A DNA stretch of 64,000 nt. It comes from Hoeflea sp. IMCC20628. Its GTDB lineage: Bacteria > Pseudomonadota > Alphaproteobacteria > Rhizobiales > Rhizobiaceae. Below are positions 58,517 through 63,938 of this stretch, in pieces. How positions within the stretch are numbered: position 1 is the stretch's first letter; every line of letters begins with the position of its first letter. Under the pieces are notes generated by a model that searched no databases, was not told the DNA's origin, and saw only the letters and a program-made list of their open reading frames with translations. The stretch spans positions 390,501 through 454,500 of the forward strand of contig NZ_CP011479.1 of assembly GCF_001011155.1 (NCBI RefSeq). Reading direction: 5' to 3'. A program made the translations under genes and the position numbers.

Positions 58517-58879
58517 ATGGCACAAGTCACGGTTACCATTGACTCCAAGACCTACCGCATGGCCTGCGAAGAGGGGCAGGAAACGCATCTCACCGAGCTT
58601 GCAAGCCGCTTTGATCGCTATGTTGGCCATCTCAAGGGTGAGTTTGGCGAAATCGGCGACTTGCGGATTACCGTGATGGCCGGAATCATGGTGATGGATG
58701 AATTGCACGAGTTGCAGCGGCGGATGCGCGGACTTGAAGCAGAAGTCGAAACCCTGAAGAAAACCCGCGACAATGCCCTGACCAAGGTCGACAAGGTTGA
58801 CAGCGATATCACCGAGGCGCTGATCGAAGTGACAGGAAAAATCGAGAAAATCGCCGGCAAGCTGGCGGGCCGGGACTAA
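58517..58879 (+). CDS. zapA: Cell division protein ZapA
   Basis: A 120-residue FtsZ-ring-associated protein that crosslinks FtsZ filaments. The N-terminal globular part has VTVTIDSKTYRMACEEGQE and LASRFDRYVGHLK; a long coiled coil follows. It probably forms an operon with the DUF4164 gene 64 bp upstream. Its stop codon (58877-58879) overlaps that of the convergent LuxR-type gene. Confidence 0.94.
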   Translation: MAQVTVTIDSKTYRMACEEGQETHLTELASRFDRYVGHLKGEFGEIGDLRITVMAGIMVMDELHELQRRMRGLEAEVETLKKTRDNALTKVDKVDSDITEALIEVTGKIEKIAGKLAGRD

Positions 58880-60669
58880 TTCTCGGCCGCCGCGGCGTGA
58901 ATTTCCTTCAGGGCGGCTATCACCTTTTCGGGAATGGCATGAAGGATATGCTGCCCGATCTCGGGAATTTCCTCATACCGGCAATTGGCTATCCGACCGG
59001 CGGCAAGCCTCGCTATTTTCGAGTTTACCGCAGGGTCAGACTCGCCATGAAGCACAATGACCGGCAGGTTGAGCAAGGCAAGCCGTTCGCTCCAGTCCGA
59101 ATCGCTCGCTGACGTGTCGGCAAGGAAGGCGGAAGCTCCACCGACAGTGACATGATGGATGCCAGCTCGCAGCAATCCGTAAATTTCCTGGTCCTGAATC
59201 GCCTTGCGGTCGCCGGGACAGTTTTCGGCAAGGGCTGAAAGGTACCGGTTGGAACCGCCATACCGCAGATAGGCAACCGCTGTGAGGGCAATGAACCGGT
59301 GTGCTGCGGCTGATGCAATCCCGCTCGACATTGCGAGTTTCTGCAAGACACCGACCGGTACAAGATGTTCAGCCATCTGCAGCGGATAATAGGCTGAGCA
59401 CAGGACCAGGCCACTGACCCGCTCGGGGTGGGTGAGACAATATTCGATCGCTGCATGAGCACCAAACAGATGGCCAAGCACGAGCGAACGACCGACACCG
59501 TGCTGGTCGCAGACATATACAGCATCCTCGATACACGATTGTATCATCGGCCTGTTCCTGAAAGGTGGGCGCGTTGCGCCATAGCCAGGTTTGGAAATGC
59601 CGAGATACTCAAAACCGGCACAGCTAAGGCCATGCCGTGCTGCCATGGTGAGTTCCGGTCCTTGCAATAACCCATGGAACATCAACACCGGACAGGTTTC
59701 CCCGGCGGTGCCGGGAGGCGCGGGGTAATGAACATAGCTGATCTGCCTCCCGCCAGAATCTGCCGTCCGCCAGGACGAAATGTCATGGGCAAAGGGGAAG
59801 CTGTTGGTTGGCGATGCGATGGTGACGCCCGGATCGGGCACTCCACCGGAGAGGGCCGCCAGGCTGACAAGGTCATTGACCACCTGGACGGCTTCGAGAC
59901 GCGATGCGACACCAAGTTTGCGAAAGATCGCCTGGGTCTGACTTTTCACCGTGTCGACAGAGCGAAAGCGATCCCGGGAGATCTCGACATTCGACTTGCC
60001 GTTGGCCATCAGCTCGAGAACTTCATTCTCTGATGGTGACAGCCCGAAGCTGCCGCTAAGAACGACCGGAATGCTGGCGCTCCAGCTGGCGCCGGGAAGG
60101 GTGACGACGACAACATCAAGTTCAAGATTGTGGTTGAGAGATACAAAACCGCTCTCGCCTTCCCTGCGTACGAAACTGCGATTTCCGCCCGGCTGTTGGG
60201 TGTTGTGTCCAAACAACGCTGCCACGGTCTCAAGCACCGGGCCGCTGAGGCTCATCTGCAATTGTTCGACCTGGTCGGCGGAATAGGCAGCGGCTTCGGT
60301 TGAAATGACTGCCTTGTTGTTCTTGTCGTGGGTGATGACGAAGCCGTCTATGTATCCGAATAGGTTTCGCGCTTGCGACGACTGCGCGACAATCCGCAAT
60401 GCCCTGTCGAAAACAATTTTCAAGGCCGGACCTTCGACCAGCGAGCGGTACTTGGCCTCTGGCGCCGGAGACATGACTTGCGCCAGTTCGGCGGCGATAT
60501 TGAAATGCTTGCCAATCTCGCCCGAGAACACCGGGTGGCCGGTTTCCCCGACAGCCAGAAAATCCTCGAGATCTTTCATGAACTCGGTGAATTCCTGATC
60601 GCCCTTGAAATAGGAATAAATTGTTTCGATTGCCCGTGTTAGCGGGGCAGGGTTGTCAACAGACTCCAT
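58876..60669 (-). CDS. LuxR-type HTH protein fused to a degenerate alpha/beta-hydrolase
   Basis: A 597-residue protein with an unusual layout. Residues 1-200 are an unassigned sensory-looking region with a weak PAS-like stretch (about 90-150). Residues 209-266 are a LuxR/GerE HTH (SPSENEVLELMANGKSNVEI...TVKSQTQAIFRKLGVASRLEAV). Residues 295-597 are an alpha/beta-hydrolase domain with oxyanion HGLLQGPEL, elbow GHLFGAHA, acid HGESDPAVN (Asp545) and IGQHILH (His574). The nucleophile Ser is Leu401 (codon CTG), so catalysis is doubtful and a ligand-receptor role is possible. It lies 113 bp downstream of the Slam-like gene. Confidence 0.86.
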   Translation of the reverse strand: MESVDNPAPLTRAIETIYSYFKGDQEFTEFMKDLEDFLAVGETGHPVFSGEIGKHFNIAAELAQVMSPAPEAKYRSLVEGPALKIVFDRALRIVAQSSQARNLFGYIDGFVITHDKNNKAVISTEAAAYSADQVEQLQMSLSGPVLETVAALFGHNTQQPGGNRSFVRREGESGFVSLNHNLELDVVVVTLPGASWSASIPVVLSGSFGLSPSENEVLELMANGKSNVEISRDRFRSVDTVKSQTQAIFRKLGVASRLEAVQVVNDLVSLAALSGGVPDPGVTIASPTNSFPFAHDISSWRTADSGGRQISYVHYPAPPGTAGETCPVLMFHGLLQGPELTMAARHGLSCAGFEYLGISKPGYGATRPPFRNRPMIQSCIEDAVYVCDQHGVGRSLVLGHLFGAHAAIEYCLTHPERVSGLVLCSAYYPLQMAEHLVPVGVLQKLAMSSGIASAAAHRFIALTAVAYLRYGGSNRYLSALAENCPGDRKAIQDQEIYGLLRAGIHHVTVGGASAFLADTSASDSDWSERLALLNLPVIVLHGESDPAVNSKIARLAAGRIANCRYEEIPEIGQHILHAIPEKVIAALKEIHAAAAEN

Positions 60670-60782
60670 GGACCGGATACCGTTTCTGTGGACTGTGATT
60701 TCGATCCGATTTTACACAATGGATGGTTGCGCACAAGCGGACGCTGACGCGCCCTGGGCGTTGTTATGGACGGGGTGGCGCT

Positions 60783-62138
60783 CTAAAATGCTTTGGTGAA
60801 GGTCAAGTCCATTCCGCTGGTTCTATAATCGTAGAATGCGACATTGCTGCTTTGCTGCTTATGGAACAGGCCGATGATCGGAGAAAGGCCGGCGATCTGG
60901 AAATCGTCCTTGCGGAAGGCCCCCCTGAGTTCCCCAAACCTGTCCTGACGCACCAGTCTCAGCCCAGGAAAAAGATCTTCGAAATCACGCGTGCCAACAG
61001 TCAGATAGGCATTCATTCGCAGACCAAAGGCGATTGGCGTCTCCATGCCCAGAGTAAGAGATTTGCTGTCGTAGGAATTCCATGGCCGGGCGGACACGGT
61101 TTCCCGTTCGAAACTGCTGCTGACCGACACCGCGATCTGATTTGAAAACGCCCGCCGCAACGTTCCTGTCGCACGTGTGGTGCTGGCTTCGGCTGCCCTG
61201 GTGGCATCAAAGCTGCGGTTCATGTGAATGACTTCTGCCGACACCCACCAGTTCTGGGCAAAGTTCCACTTTGCCGCGACCCGGCCTCCGATCCCCAGAC
61301 TGTAAGGTTTGAAATTTTGCCAGTGGCGGTCAAATATTGCTTCAGCCTGAAGCGAATAGCGAAGTTCATTCCGTCTCAATCCCACTCGAATTTCGCCCTG
61401 CTGCTTGTCATAATCATCGTTGGAGTAATCGGAAAAGCCCGCCGACAGGGATGCGTAGGCGGCGAGGTTTTCGGTCAGCATGTGCGAGTAGCCTGCGACG
61501 GCTCCAGCCCTGACACCAATTCCTGATTGTTCGCGTGCCCCATTGGCAATCGTGAACGGCAGGCCTCCGATCATGACTGTGGATTGGGAGGTGCCATCGT
61601 TGACGTTGGTGGAGGGGGCAAGGGAGAAGTATCCAGACAGAGAAAATCCCCTGGTGGTGCCTGCCCGGCGCGAGAGTTGCTCAAGTTGGTTCGAATCCCT
61701 GGTCAAATCGGCGGTGTCGATCAGCCGATTGAGCTGGTACCCCGCTGCCTGCCGCTTGTTCTGCGCCAGAAGGATCTCCACCAACTCGATGCGGACCGTA
61801 TCAATGCCGGGTTCGCGGGAAAGAATTTCCCGAAGCAGTTTTTCTGCACGGTCCAGGCGGCCGGTGCGGGCATAGACCACCGCCAGAAGATAGGCAGCAG
61901 GAATGGCTTCCCGACCCTGGAAACGGGTGTTTTGCAGGATAGTCTCGGCCGCAGTGAAATCACCCGCTCCGACAAGTGCTTCAGCAGACAGGAACGGGGA
62001 ATCCGCCTGAGCAGGCGATATGCACAGCGGCAAGGACGCAAGCGCCGCGAAAAGCGTTGTTGTCAACGCCCTTAGCCCTTTACGTACTCGCCACCGGTCT
62101 GGACCCATTTCCGAGGAAAACACGGGAATTTTACGCAT
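60783..62138 (-). CDS. Slam-like surface lipoprotein assembly modifier
   Basis: A 451-residue outer-membrane protein. The signal peptide ends near Ala45 (SPAQA). Two to three TPR-type helix pairs (about 50-150, for example AYLLAVVYARTGRLDRAEKLL) follow, then a predicted 14-strand barrel (about 160-451) ending in LTFTKAF with a terminal Phe for BAM insertion. TPR plus barrel is the Slam/DUF560 architecture, which delivers specific lipoproteins to the cell surface. It starts 6 bp after the TbpB-like lipoprotein gene, so the pair is co-transcribed. An alternative start at 62108 would shorten the pre-signal region. Confidence 0.85.
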   Translation of the reverse strand: MRKIPVFSSEMGPDRWRVRKGLRALTTTLFAALASLPLCISPAQADSPFLSAEALVGAGDFTAAETILQNTRFQGREAIPAAYLLAVVYARTGRLDRAEKLLREILSREPGIDTVRIELVEILLAQNKRQAAGYQLNRLIDTADLTRDSNQLEQLSRRAGTTRGFSLSGYFSLAPSTNVNDGTSQSTVMIGGLPFTIANGAREQSGIGVRAGAVAGYSHMLTENLAAYASLSAGFSDYSNDDYDKQQGEIRVGLRRNELRYSLQAEAIFDRHWQNFKPYSLGIGGRVAAKWNFAQNWWVSAEVIHMNRSFDATRAAEASTTRATGTLRRAFSNQIAVSVSSSFERETVSARPWNSYDSKSLTLGMETPIAFGLRMNAYLTVGTRDFEDLFPGLRLVRQDRFGELRGAFRKDDFQIAGLSPIIGLFHKQQSSNVAFYDYRTSGMDLTFTKAF

Positions 62139-62144
62139 TGCTGA

Positions 62145-63206
62145 TTAGTTTTTCACGGCGCCAAAGGTTCCCGTCATCAGATAATCCCGGTTCTGGCCAT
62201 CGATCTCCGCATTGCCTTCGATCACATAGGCGGCAGCGGTTTCTGCTGCCGCGTCTCCGAAGAACGACCCGATGGCTTCGTTGTAGGTTGATGTTCCAAC
62301 GGGGTTGTTGTTCGAATCGACCAGTTGGGCTGTTCCGGTATAATCCGAACCGGTGATGTTTGCGTTGATGTTGAGGCCGGTCACGTTGGGGTTGAGCATC
62401 AGCATATTGCTGTCTTTGTAAGCGGCGAGTTGGCCGTTCTTAATGCCACCCTTGACCGTTCCAGCTCCGAAATCCGCAGTCAGTTCAACCTCGCCGCCGT
62501 TGAGCCCCATGTTCTGCATGTTTCCGTTGTCATCATAAACCGAGGTTCCACCCTCGTGGAAACCGCGATATGTGGCCTGTCCGGACATGGGCATGTTGGT
62601 GGTGTTGTTGCCGATGAAGCCGACCGCTTGAACAGAGGTTGCGGCACCATCAGCGCCCTCCTGGTAACGAATGGTCGTGCCATGCTTGAGAACAATCTGC
62701 TCAACAAATTTGCCGTTTGAATCGTGGCGGTTGTAGACACCGACCGAGGACAGGTTTGCATGCTCGTTCGAGACCTGTGCGTCACCGAAGTTGCCGCCGT
62801 CGAAGTAGATACTGCCTTTGGCGTCCGTCATCCCGACAAGCGTGGTTCCGTTTTCCAGCTGGTCTGTGGAGGTGGCCGTGATCAGGGCCGGGTTGTTGCC
62901 CTGATTGGTGTTTGGATCGGGATCGACGTCCGCAGCCCCATCAATGGTAATCCCGCCCGGCGCAGATTTTTCGAGAATCCTGGCTTGCGTGATCTGGTGT
63001 TGGGACTGCGGCAGATTTGTATAGGAGCTGACTGAAGAAGTGTTTGTCGCATTCACCCGATAGGCCAGCGCCTTGCCGGATGCCTTGATCGGCAGCGAGC
63101 CTCCGGCAGCAGGACCCGCCAATGTGCCACCCGAGGGTGAACACGCACTGACTACGGGAAGAATTGCGAGCACCACTGCGCCGGAAATTAAAGCTGATTT
63201 GTTCAT
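62145..63206 (-). CDS. TbpB-barrel-like surface lipoprotein (predicted Slam client)
   Basis: A 353-residue lipoprotein: signal MNKSALISGAVVLAILPVVS then lipobox VSAC with lipidated Cys22. A glycine-rich tether follows. Residues about 195-353 form a TbpB-type beta-barrel domain: MPMSGQATYRGF, GGEVELTADFGAGTVKGGI, a central variable part, and GSFFGDAAAETAAAYVIEG ending GTFGAVKN. This fold occurs in transferrin-binding protein B, fHbp-like and hemophore-like surface proteins. The ligand is unknown. Asn/Asp-rich loops at 95-160 may be the variable face. AGGGA lies seven bases before the ATG; a longer frame starts at 63230. Confidence 0.82.
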   Translation of the reverse strand: MNKSALISGAVVLAILPVVSACSPSGGTLAGPAAGGSLPIKASGKALAYRVNATNTSSVSSYTNLPQSQHQITQARILEKSAPGGITIDGAADVDPDPNTNQGNNPALITATSTDQLENGTTLVGMTDAKGSIYFDGGNFGDAQVSNEHANLSSVGVYNRHDSNGKFVEQIVLKHGTTIRYQEGADGAATSVQAVGFIGNNTTNMPMSGQATYRGFHEGGTSVYDDNGNMQNMGLNGGEVELTADFGAGTVKGGIKNGQLAAYKDSNMLMLNPNVTGLNINANITGSDYTGTAQLVDSNNNPVGTSTYNEAIGSFFGDAAAETAAAYVIEGNAEIDGQNRDYLMTGTFGAVKN

Positions 63207-63390
63207 GATCCATCCCTCGCCCGCATACACTTACGAAACACTGCCCGCATTCAGGGCCAGCCCGCCGAATCCGGGGCGGGATCACGGCAGGCCATCGATA
63301 CTCAAACCTCGACGATGCGAATGGTTTGGACTGCACACGAGGAAACCTCCGCGTGTGCCGTTGCATTGAAGTATCGATGGAAATGCAGGA
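63207..63390 (-). promoter_or_regulatory. Structured 5' leader of the lipoprotein gene
   Basis: On the minus strand, in transcript order: a long outer stem with arms at 63366-63380 and 63292-63305 (CCATCGATACTTCAA pairing, one bulge), enclosing a hairpin at 63333-63358 (GCACAC/GTGTGC plus GAGG/CCTC), then a third hairpin CCCGCC/GGCGGG (63261-63280), and the ribosome site near 63215. This multi-helix layout suggests a cis-regulatory RNA. No known riboswitch class is recognisable by eye. No T tract follows the third hairpin, so control would be translational or by RNA stability. Confidence 0.45.
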
Positions 63391-63397
63391 CTCTCAA

Positions 63398-63413
63398 TCA
63401 CCCGATCGGGTGA
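63398..63413. promoter_or_regulatory. 16-bp perfect palindrome, operator candidate
   Basis: TCACCCGATCGGGTGA is a perfect 16-bp palindrome about 190 bp upstream of the lipoprotein start and 18 bp upstream of the leader stem. Length and symmetry match LuxR-family dimer sites (lux-box-like). Two LuxR-type HTH genes flank this locus. Confidence 0.5.
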
Positions 63414-63581
63414 AAACACTGTTTTGCGATTTAATGATTTGCTCATTGGCGCGGGGCACGTGATGACCTATATACAGCTTGCGATCTGCGCCCCTCGACA
63501 GGATACACGAACCCTGGGGCCTTAATTGATCCAAAGGGTGCTGTCCCTGACCGGACTCGTGGGTCCGGACATATGGCGCCC

Positions 63582-63596
63582 ACCTACGTTGTAGGT
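63582..63596. promoter_or_regulatory. Short dyad ACCTAC-N3-GTAGGT
   Basis: A perfect 6-3-6 inverted repeat in the 520-bp gene-free interval between the HTH gene and the lipoprotein gene. A second dyad, CCGGAC/GTCCGG (63551-63568), lies just beside it. Either may be a regulator site; nothing identifies the protein. Confidence 0.35.
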
Positions 63597-63640
63597 TCCC
63601 AGGATCAATAAATCCATCGGTTGCCGTGGATCGCACTTTT

Positions 63641-63676
63641 CTCTCGCAAATCTGAAATATCTGCTCTCTCGCAAAT
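63641..63676. repeat. Direct repeat CTCTCGCAAAT x2
   Basis: CTCTCGCAAAT occurs at 63641-63651 and 63666-63676, 25 bp apart start to start, in the gene-free interval downstream of the HTH gene. The spacing of about 2.4 helical turns could suit a tandem-binding regulator, but two copies may be coincidence. The rest of the interval 63414-63728 shows no convincing coding frame. Confidence 0.4.
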
Positions 63677-63728
63677 GCTGGTCAAAGCGGAGGCTGTCCT
63701 GCCGCAAATTGAGCAGATGATTTGCGGC

Positions 63729-63938
63729 CTACTGGATCAATCCCAGTTTCAACGCGCGCGCTACGGCCTCGATTGTGGTGTCGGCCATCAGTTTCCGGCA
63801 CGCAGATGCGATCAGGGTGTTGGCATTGGTCTGGCATTCATTGTGTTGCCCGGTCTTGATATCGTGCGCCCGACCCCGCGCCGCCAGTTGCAGGCAGATC
63901 CGTTCAGGACTGGTCAATGGTTCCAGGGGGAAGGTCAT
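63729..63938 (-). CDS. Stand-alone LuxR-type HTH protein
   Basis: A 69-residue protein that is nothing but a GerE/LuxR HTH: LTSPERICLQLAARGRAHDI, then ACRKLMADTTIEAVARALKLGLI, which follows the autoinducer-LuxR C-terminal pattern. There is no receiver or ligand domain. AAGGA lies five bases before the ATG at 63938, so this is an intact short gene rather than a 3' remnant. The helix between the two blocks (KTGQHNECQTNANTL) diverges from consensus, so DNA specificity may be unusual. Confidence 0.68.
   Translation of the reverse strand: MTFPLEPLTSPERICLQLAARGRAHDIKTGQHNECQTNANTLIASACRKLMADTTIEAVARALKLGLIQ

Follow-up and report, generated by a model that had tools for sequence, protein, structure and literature searches.

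Do the TbpB-like lipoprotein gene and the Slam-like gene that lie side by side in Hoeflea sp. IMCC20628, a marine relative of the rhizobia, form a device for surface display, and which of their neighbors belong to it? Both genes lie near one end of the 64,000-nucleotide stretch of DNA that we analyzed (contig NZ_CP011479.1, positions 390,501 to 454,500; called here the window), in a genome of 5.12 Mb. A preliminary description had grouped them with two LuxR-type regulatory genes as one self-contained display system. All four open reading frames (ORFs) are present, all on the minus strand, and the lipoprotein and Slam-type genes most probably constitute a two-gene type XI secretion system (T11SS, or Slam) unit, made up of a translocon and its probable cargo, with surface display predicted.

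The Slam-type gene and its probable cargo

The Slam-type gene starts 6 bp downstream of the lipoprotein gene, the gap given in the preliminary description, and the domain assignments made there for both proteins stand. The SlipAM (DUF560) profile matched the Slam-type protein at 67.7 bits (cutoff, 22) over positions 3 to 288 of its 288, and TbpB_B_D matched the lipoprotein at 49.3 bits (cutoff, 26). The N-terminal tetratricopeptide repeats (TPRs) of the Slam-type protein were recognized by TPR_19 (43 bits; cutoff, 25), and the Slam-specific TPR_Slam scored 26.4 bits, under its cutoff of 35.2. Genome-wide searches found SlipAM and TbpB_B_D only once each. These matches point to a T11SS outer membrane protein that is predicted to translocate a cargo, and the TbpB-fold lipoprotein is the probable cargo, as had been proposed. 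In five of the seven genus orthologs, the residues F-S-S-E-M-G precede the Slam signal peptide, and translation may in fact begin at the ATG at 62108.

The lipoprotein consists of a lipobox signal peptide, a stretch that is unordered to residue 41, a β-rich N-terminal domain, and a C-terminal TbpB-type barrel. Read by eye from the sequence, without a signal peptide program, the signal peptide ends in VVSAC at Cys22. An AlphaFold2 model built from 10 sequences had a mean predicted local distance difference test (pLDDT) score of 77; residues 1 to 41 fell below 50, and the barrel was confident, with ten-residue means of 85 to 96 from residue 201 onward. A fold search of the PDB with this model gave 35 matches at E values of ≤0.001, the top 25 of which were TbpB, LbpB, hemophilin, or NHBA, bearing out the likeness that the preliminary description had offered for checking; hemophilin ranked 2nd and fHbp 30th. 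Among PDB sequences, a profile of 12 relatives matched TbpB (E, 8.7e-8) and, besides it, LbpB and hemophilin, the last with an E value of 0.0024. Searching the PDB by phmmer with the single lipoprotein and the single Slam protein yielded nothing useful, and a Slam profile retrieved essentially TPR proteins alone. Among nine Hoeflea lipoprotein orthologs, the last third of the barrel was the most conserved part and the early N-terminal part the least, a pattern that would suit a barrel serving as the secretion handle.

We then looked at how often the two genes occur together. The closest named relatives by Slam protein are Hoeflea (seven of nine loci; the other two are distant metagenome-assembled genomes). 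Slam matches were found in 8 of 18 genomes of the genus, and in all eight a barrel gene lies upstream of the main Slam gene. None of the 10 Slam-less genomes had a lipoprotein match, two of these genomes being 77% (G405) and 75% (G408) complete. Farther afield, SlipAM matched in 50 of 394 genomes of a family sample (48 over the cutoff) and in 31 of 397 genomes of an order sample (29 over the cutoff). We fetched 60 regions from the best-scoring places, a choice that leans to high scores, and kept 55, dropping five that had no called Slam ORF longer than 230 amino acids. A barrel gene lies upstream of Slam on the same strand in 48 of the 55 loci, with gaps of −26 to 224 bp, and 45 of these 48 genes carry a lipobox pattern; the barrel profile was built on the same fetched regions, the lipobox pattern is loose, and the genes were called by a home-made caller that makes some starts too long and may make some wrong calls. 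The conserved linkage of lipoprotein and Slam expected from the preliminary description is thus found in relatives.

The ratio of nonsynonymous to synonymous substitution rates (dN/dS) was about 0.12 to 0.16 for Slam, 0.18 to 0.20 for the lipoprotein, and 0.09 to 0.19 for the LuxR gene, from two less saturated ortholog pairs each; the value of one lipoprotein pair may take in a few untranslated codons from an overlong start. Purifying selection appears to act on all three genes. Because each of the two families occurs once in this genome, the two genes are adjacent, and dN/dS is low, the pairing of lipoprotein and Slam goes beyond chance.

Several results weigh against reading the pair as a Slam translocon with its cargo. 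The NCBIfam model NF041636, "Slam-dependent surface lipoprotein," gave the window lipoprotein 31.2 bits against a cutoff of 80, and among five of its relatives, four scored 31.6 to 34.9 bits and one did not match. At seven of the 55 Slam loci (L088, L099, L108, L110, L112, L113, and L123), no barrel gene could be seen. Finally, the overlap of the whole lipoprotein chain with PDB folds is loose, with template modeling (TM) scores of about 0.2 to 0.5. The barrel alone superposes well, on the NHBA C-terminal domain (TM score by target, 0.63 to 0.66). Since only the barrel superposes well and the whole-chain overlap is loose, the lipoprotein is, as modeled, one β-rich N-terminal domain plus one barrel and not a two-lobed TbpB. 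TbpB proper has a handle and a barrel in each of two lobes and a TbpA partner; here there is one barrel, and no TonB receptor was found nearby.

If the pair works as its families suggest, the lipoprotein would leave the cytoplasm through Sec, receive its lipid at Cys22, and be delivered to the outer membrane. There the Slam-type protein, which is probably translated from the same mRNA, would carry it across to the cell's outer face. Slam would recognize the C-terminal barrel, and the N-terminal β-rich domain would be the outward, ligand-binding part.

Some loci elsewhere depart from the simple pair. At L083, L127, and L129, one Slam gene is preceded by two or three consecutive barrel genes. 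One Hoeflea genome (G399) has a second Slam and barrel-lipoprotein pair, 25% identical (L076), beside two genes that we take to be istA and istB of IS21. At L095, L096, and L104, the Slam/barrel pair is followed by genes for proteins of 731 to 748 and 227 amino acids, presumably a two-component system and thus another type of regulator adjoining T11SS genes.

The LuxR/hydrolase gene and the question of uptake

The gene downstream of Slam had been described as a LuxR-α/β-hydrolase fusion, and we reached the same assignment: GerE, the LuxR-type helix-turn-helix (HTH) domain, scored 44.7 bits (cutoff, 23.5) and Abhydrolase_1 scored 47.9 bits, with an Ndr match below the cutoff. Two distant relatives also had PAS matches at or just under the cutoff. 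phmmer alignments to 5h3h and EphB place Leu401 at the position of the nucleophile, which is Ser or Asp in the references; this position is ungapped in the alignments to 5h3h, 2e3j, and 2zjf and falls in a gap in those to 4uhc and 4uhh. Gln573 lies at the position of the catalytic His in alignments to 5h3h and 4uhc, and the acid is Asp545. In an AlphaFold model with a mean pLDDT of 56, of low quality except in the hydrolase domain, residue 401 sits at a strand-to-helix turn (strand, 395 to 400; helix, 401 to 413).

We compared 40 distinct LuxR/hydrolase sequences from the fetched loci, including that of the window. The acid position was Asp in all 40. The His position held Gln in 28, Asn in 6, Glu in 3, and Ser in 1, with gaps in 2, and the nucleophile position held Leu in 13, Met in 9, Gln in 8, Ser in 4, and other residues in 6. 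Of the 10 closest sequences (the window's among them), nine read Leu/Asp/Gln and one Met/Asp/Gln. The alignment model includes two distant rows and columns may be shifted in far relatives; in three sequences a Ser follows in the next column (G-L-S), and in the Asn cases a His follows a few residues later. With a triad that reads Leu401/Asp545/Gln573 and His in none of the 38 sequences that have a residue at that position, we rejected the idea that the domain is an enzyme. Because the nucleophile and the His are both absent, the protein is probably a binding pseudoenzyme, one of a family of pseudohydrolase regulators.

Does this regulator control the Slam pair? The LuxR/hydrolase gene lies beside zapA together with Slam and the lipoprotein gene in six of eight zapA-side Slam loci (G000, G398, G399, G402, G409, and G521), on the same strand and in the same order in two genera, and a consensus scan of the minus strand found no terminator-like site between the Slam and LuxR genes. 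Two near-identical genomes of another family (L117 and L121) have a LuxR/hydrolase gene of a different subfamily as the next gene downstream of a Slam/barrel pair. A tree grouped these two copies with an unlinked Hoeflea olei paralog (support, 100/100, on a long branch). Because they fall outside the zapA-site clade, the arrival of a LuxR/hydrolase gene downstream of a Slam/barrel pair seems to have happened at least twice. This linkage is suggestive of control of the pair, and such control is plausible; the pseudohydrolase would probably respond to a bound small molecule or partner without turnover. The tie between expression and small-molecule sensing that the preliminary description proposed may hold.

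Against a fixed three-gene unit, in which the lipoprotein and Slam genes would be switched by the regulator upon its binding of a small molecule, stand the genomes in which these genes occur apart. G404 and G407 have Slam and the lipoprotein without LuxR/hydrolase, with 87 to 104 bp from Slam to zapA. Conversely, four genomes have LuxR/hydrolase without an adjacent Slam gene and without a lipoprotein match; the gene adjoins zapA in three of them (G426, G641, and G586) and is separated from it by about 4 kb in the fourth (G433). G641 has a Slam gene elsewhere (L236). Both kinds of gene are present and unlinked in G469, G622, and G646 of the family sample and in G088 of the order sample. At an E value of ≤1e-30, the LuxR/hydrolase family was present in 47 of 394 family-sample genomes and 15 of 397 order-sample genomes; of these genomes, 5 and 3, respectively, have a member adjacent to Slam (G000 being counted in both samples). 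Since each is found without the other adjacent, the LuxR/hydrolase gene is separable from the Slam pair by these comparisons, and neither depends on the other. We regard a regulated unit of three genes as a tentative proposal, somewhat less probable than its opposite. A wider form of the idea is doubtful: that the Hyphomicrobiales have a family of LuxR HTH proteins with a hydrolase turned receptor, two subfamilies of which were separately recruited to control Slam loci, so that a small molecule resembling a hydrolase substrate would switch display. The LuxR neighbor is what stands out most at the locus, and its family, with a hydrolase domain that is apparently dead, offers a second lead.

Another explanation is that the lipoprotein captures a substrate (heme, a metal, or a siderophore) as one half of a TonB-dependent uptake system, the receptor of which is encoded elsewhere. 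The well-known relatives TbpB, LbpB, and HpuA act in this way, and TonB receptor genes were counted in 120 of 185 Slam clusters (PMC5449769). The preliminary description had noted no TonB receptor in view, and this agrees with the whole genome, where one receptor scored above the cutoff (C1:723544), 271 kb from the Slam gene, with one weak match below it. That single receptor could be the partner of the lipoprotein, a point in favor of uptake. TonB receptor barrels are present in 16 of 18 genomes of the genus. None was found close to the main Slam gene in the eight Slam-bearing Hoeflea genomes: in six they are on other contigs, weak evidence in those genomes whose contigs are short, and in two they are at least 271 kb away. 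The receptor counts of genomes with Slam (2, 2, 1, 3, 7, 1, 12, and 1, the 12 coming from G407, which is 9% contaminated) overlap those of genomes without it (2, 1, 1, 1, 3, 0, 1, 2, 0, and 2). Among 94 Slam-locus neighbor proteins (of 106), no TonB family had three or more members, families of one or two members being partly shown; the most frequent family there was GerE (10), and MCP had 4.

We consider an uptake role unlikely. Because no TonB receptor was found with the pair, the lipoprotein is more likely to be a surface binder or adhesin than the lipoprotein half of an uptake pair, and in Hoeflea the binder would perhaps be directed to algal or other surfaces. It is very improbable that the Slam-like protein is a porin-like relic that has lost translocation and leaves the lipoprotein periplasmic: the abstract of PMC12282271 names no verified T11SS protein beyond cluster 1, but the joint presence and absence of the two genes, their adjacency in most loci, and purifying selection on both argue against a relic.

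The zapA-ssrS-fau site

The preliminary description overlooked a 6S (SsrS) RNA gene between the HTH-only ORF and the lipoprotein gene (RF00013, 75.5 bits; cutoff, 46.4). Because this gene is on the plus strand, the cassette lies antisense within a zapA-ssrS-fau block; the gene names fau and ymdB are used here as presumptive labels. In all seven Slam-bearing sources tested (G409, G641, and G433 being excluded from the 6S tests), the 6S gene lies upstream of the lipoprotein gene and the cassette between zapA and ssrS. In nine genomes without an insert, zapA and the 6S gene are 48 to 195 bp apart; G413 could not be placed, its fetched stretch containing neither 6S nor zapA, and G408 was left out. 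Hoeflea marina (G401) has no insert here and carries a 41%-identical Slam gene and barrel gene elsewhere (L079/L186). The genes beside that pair look like those for sarcosine oxidase subunits, a one-carbon neighbor of the kind reported for T11SS.

G407 groups with G409 and G404 with G402 both in the Slam tree, at supports of 100 and 83, and in a five-marker tree, where the Slam-less G411 falls in with G409 at a support of 75. Because of this agreement and of the position of G411, the data fit a Slam pair that has long resided beside zapA in Hoeflea and has been lost repeatedly. The lipoprotein tree is less supportive: it did not recover G404 with G402, and its inner supports are weak. Several inner supports in the tree comparison are low. 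Allelic exchange through the site flanks may have occurred. The two groups shared by the Slam and marker trees, together with the constant site, led us to reject recent transfer as the principal explanation.

The HTH-only gene, between ssrS and fau, had been counted as a member of the system. As a family, it is indeed LuxR-like, with five of nine orthologs over the GerE cutoff; the window copy itself had no Pfam match and looks degenerate, perhaps a regulator in decay. The gene is present by fau in seven of nine Slam-less Hoeflea regions, at 42 to 75% identity to the window copy, and in six of seven genus members with the cassette beside zapA; in the remaining member, H. alexandrii (G398), this gene was not called. 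With the 6S RNA gene in between, persistence without Slam, and no call in G398, we rejected it as part of the device; by these comparisons it is a resident unrelated to the pair. The claim of four genes forming one self-contained unit fails on this gene and on the separate occurrence of LuxR/hydrolase and Slam.

In Hoeflea and relatives, zapA-ssrS and ssrS-fau are two variable spots (window positions 58880 to 63730; L071 to L078, L102, L190 to L200, and L231 to L234). The first holds a Slam cassette or a LuxR gene; the second holds a chemoreceptor (L072; MCP/dCache_3), a resistance-nodulation-division pump (L102; ACR_tran), a GGDEF-EAL protein (L078), and others. The site also shows how T11SS genes can adjoin a folate gene by position (zapA-ssrS-fau) and not by function, which bears on the one-carbon co-occurrence in PMC12282271.

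Table 1. Features of the locus, in window coordinates
Feature	Position	Strand	Basis
zapA, resident flank	58517..58879	+	Pfam; Hoeflea comparison
LuxR-type HTH regulator with C-terminal α/β-hydrolase domain lacking catalytic residues	58876..60669	-	Pfam, alignments
Gln573 codon, catalytic-His position (G-Q)	58951..58953	-	Alignments
Leu401 codon, nucleophile position (G-H-L-F-G)	59467..59469	-	Alignments, model
Predicted Slam/T11SS outer membrane protein, 451 aa, with signal peptide, TPRs, and SlipAM barrel	60783..62138	-	Pfam
Predicted surface lipoprotein, 353 aa, probable T11SS cargo	62145..63206	-	Pfam, profile search, model, fold search
TbpB_B_D barrel, residues 205-352	62151..62594	-	Pfam; pLDDT 85-96 from residue 201
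Lipobox Cys22 codon, Ser at +2	63141..63143	-	Sequence; Cys in 10/10 alignment rows
6S (SsrS) RNA gene, resident flank, not in device	63480..63636	+	RF00013
LuxR-HTH-like ORF, 69 aa, between ssrS and fau; resident, outside device, apparently degenerate copy	63729..63938	-	Pfam, orthologs

Relation to known systems

Work on Slam1 identifies it as the translocon and Skp as a helper (PMC9090332). Ten T11SS clusters have been defined, nine of which contained no characterized protein (PMC8406197); a later report places all seven verified T11SS proteins in cluster 1 and adds one cargo experiment (PMC12282271). T11SS cargo beyond the animal-associated cluster is thus little explored, and the Hoeflea pair is compact, with one cargo, no uptake receptor in view, and carriers and clean noncarriers at one site, so that the purpose of the cargo is directly testable. 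Among the matches listed in a search of the open-license literature, there was no paper on a Hoeflea T11SS or on the LuxR/pseudohydrolase family.

The pair shares with Slam1-TbpB a TPR and SlipAM protein, a lipobox cargo with a TbpB-type barrel, and an adjacent cargo gene. It differs in having one barrel lobe where TbpB has two, in having no TonB receptor partner found, and in its host, which is Hoeflea and not an animal-associated Neisseria, Moraxella, or Haemophilus. Hemophilin, of the T11SS-dependent hemophores, has the same plan of one N-terminal domain and one C-terminal barrel, whereas the Hoeflea protein has a lipobox. The LuxR protein can be set beside NDRG and plant GID1, α/β-hydrolase-fold proteins without catalysis; they have in common the fold with lost catalytic residues, and in the Hoeflea protein a LuxR HTH is part of the same chain.

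A further likeness is to the T11SS cargo of marine Rhodobacteraceae/Roseobacteraceae, described as signal peptidase II (SPII) lipoproteins of 282 to 375 amino acids with a C-terminal eight-stranded barrel, at loci where TonB receptors are rare (PMC12282271). Because such SPII lipoproteins are already reported there, lipidated T11SS cargo in alphaproteobacteria is not new, and the Hoeflea device is ordinary in kind. Going by that description, the two share an alphaproteobacterial SPII lipoprotein, a C-terminal barrel, and a T11SS locus; what sets the Hoeflea locus apart is its zapA-ssrS site and its LuxR/pseudohydrolase neighbor.

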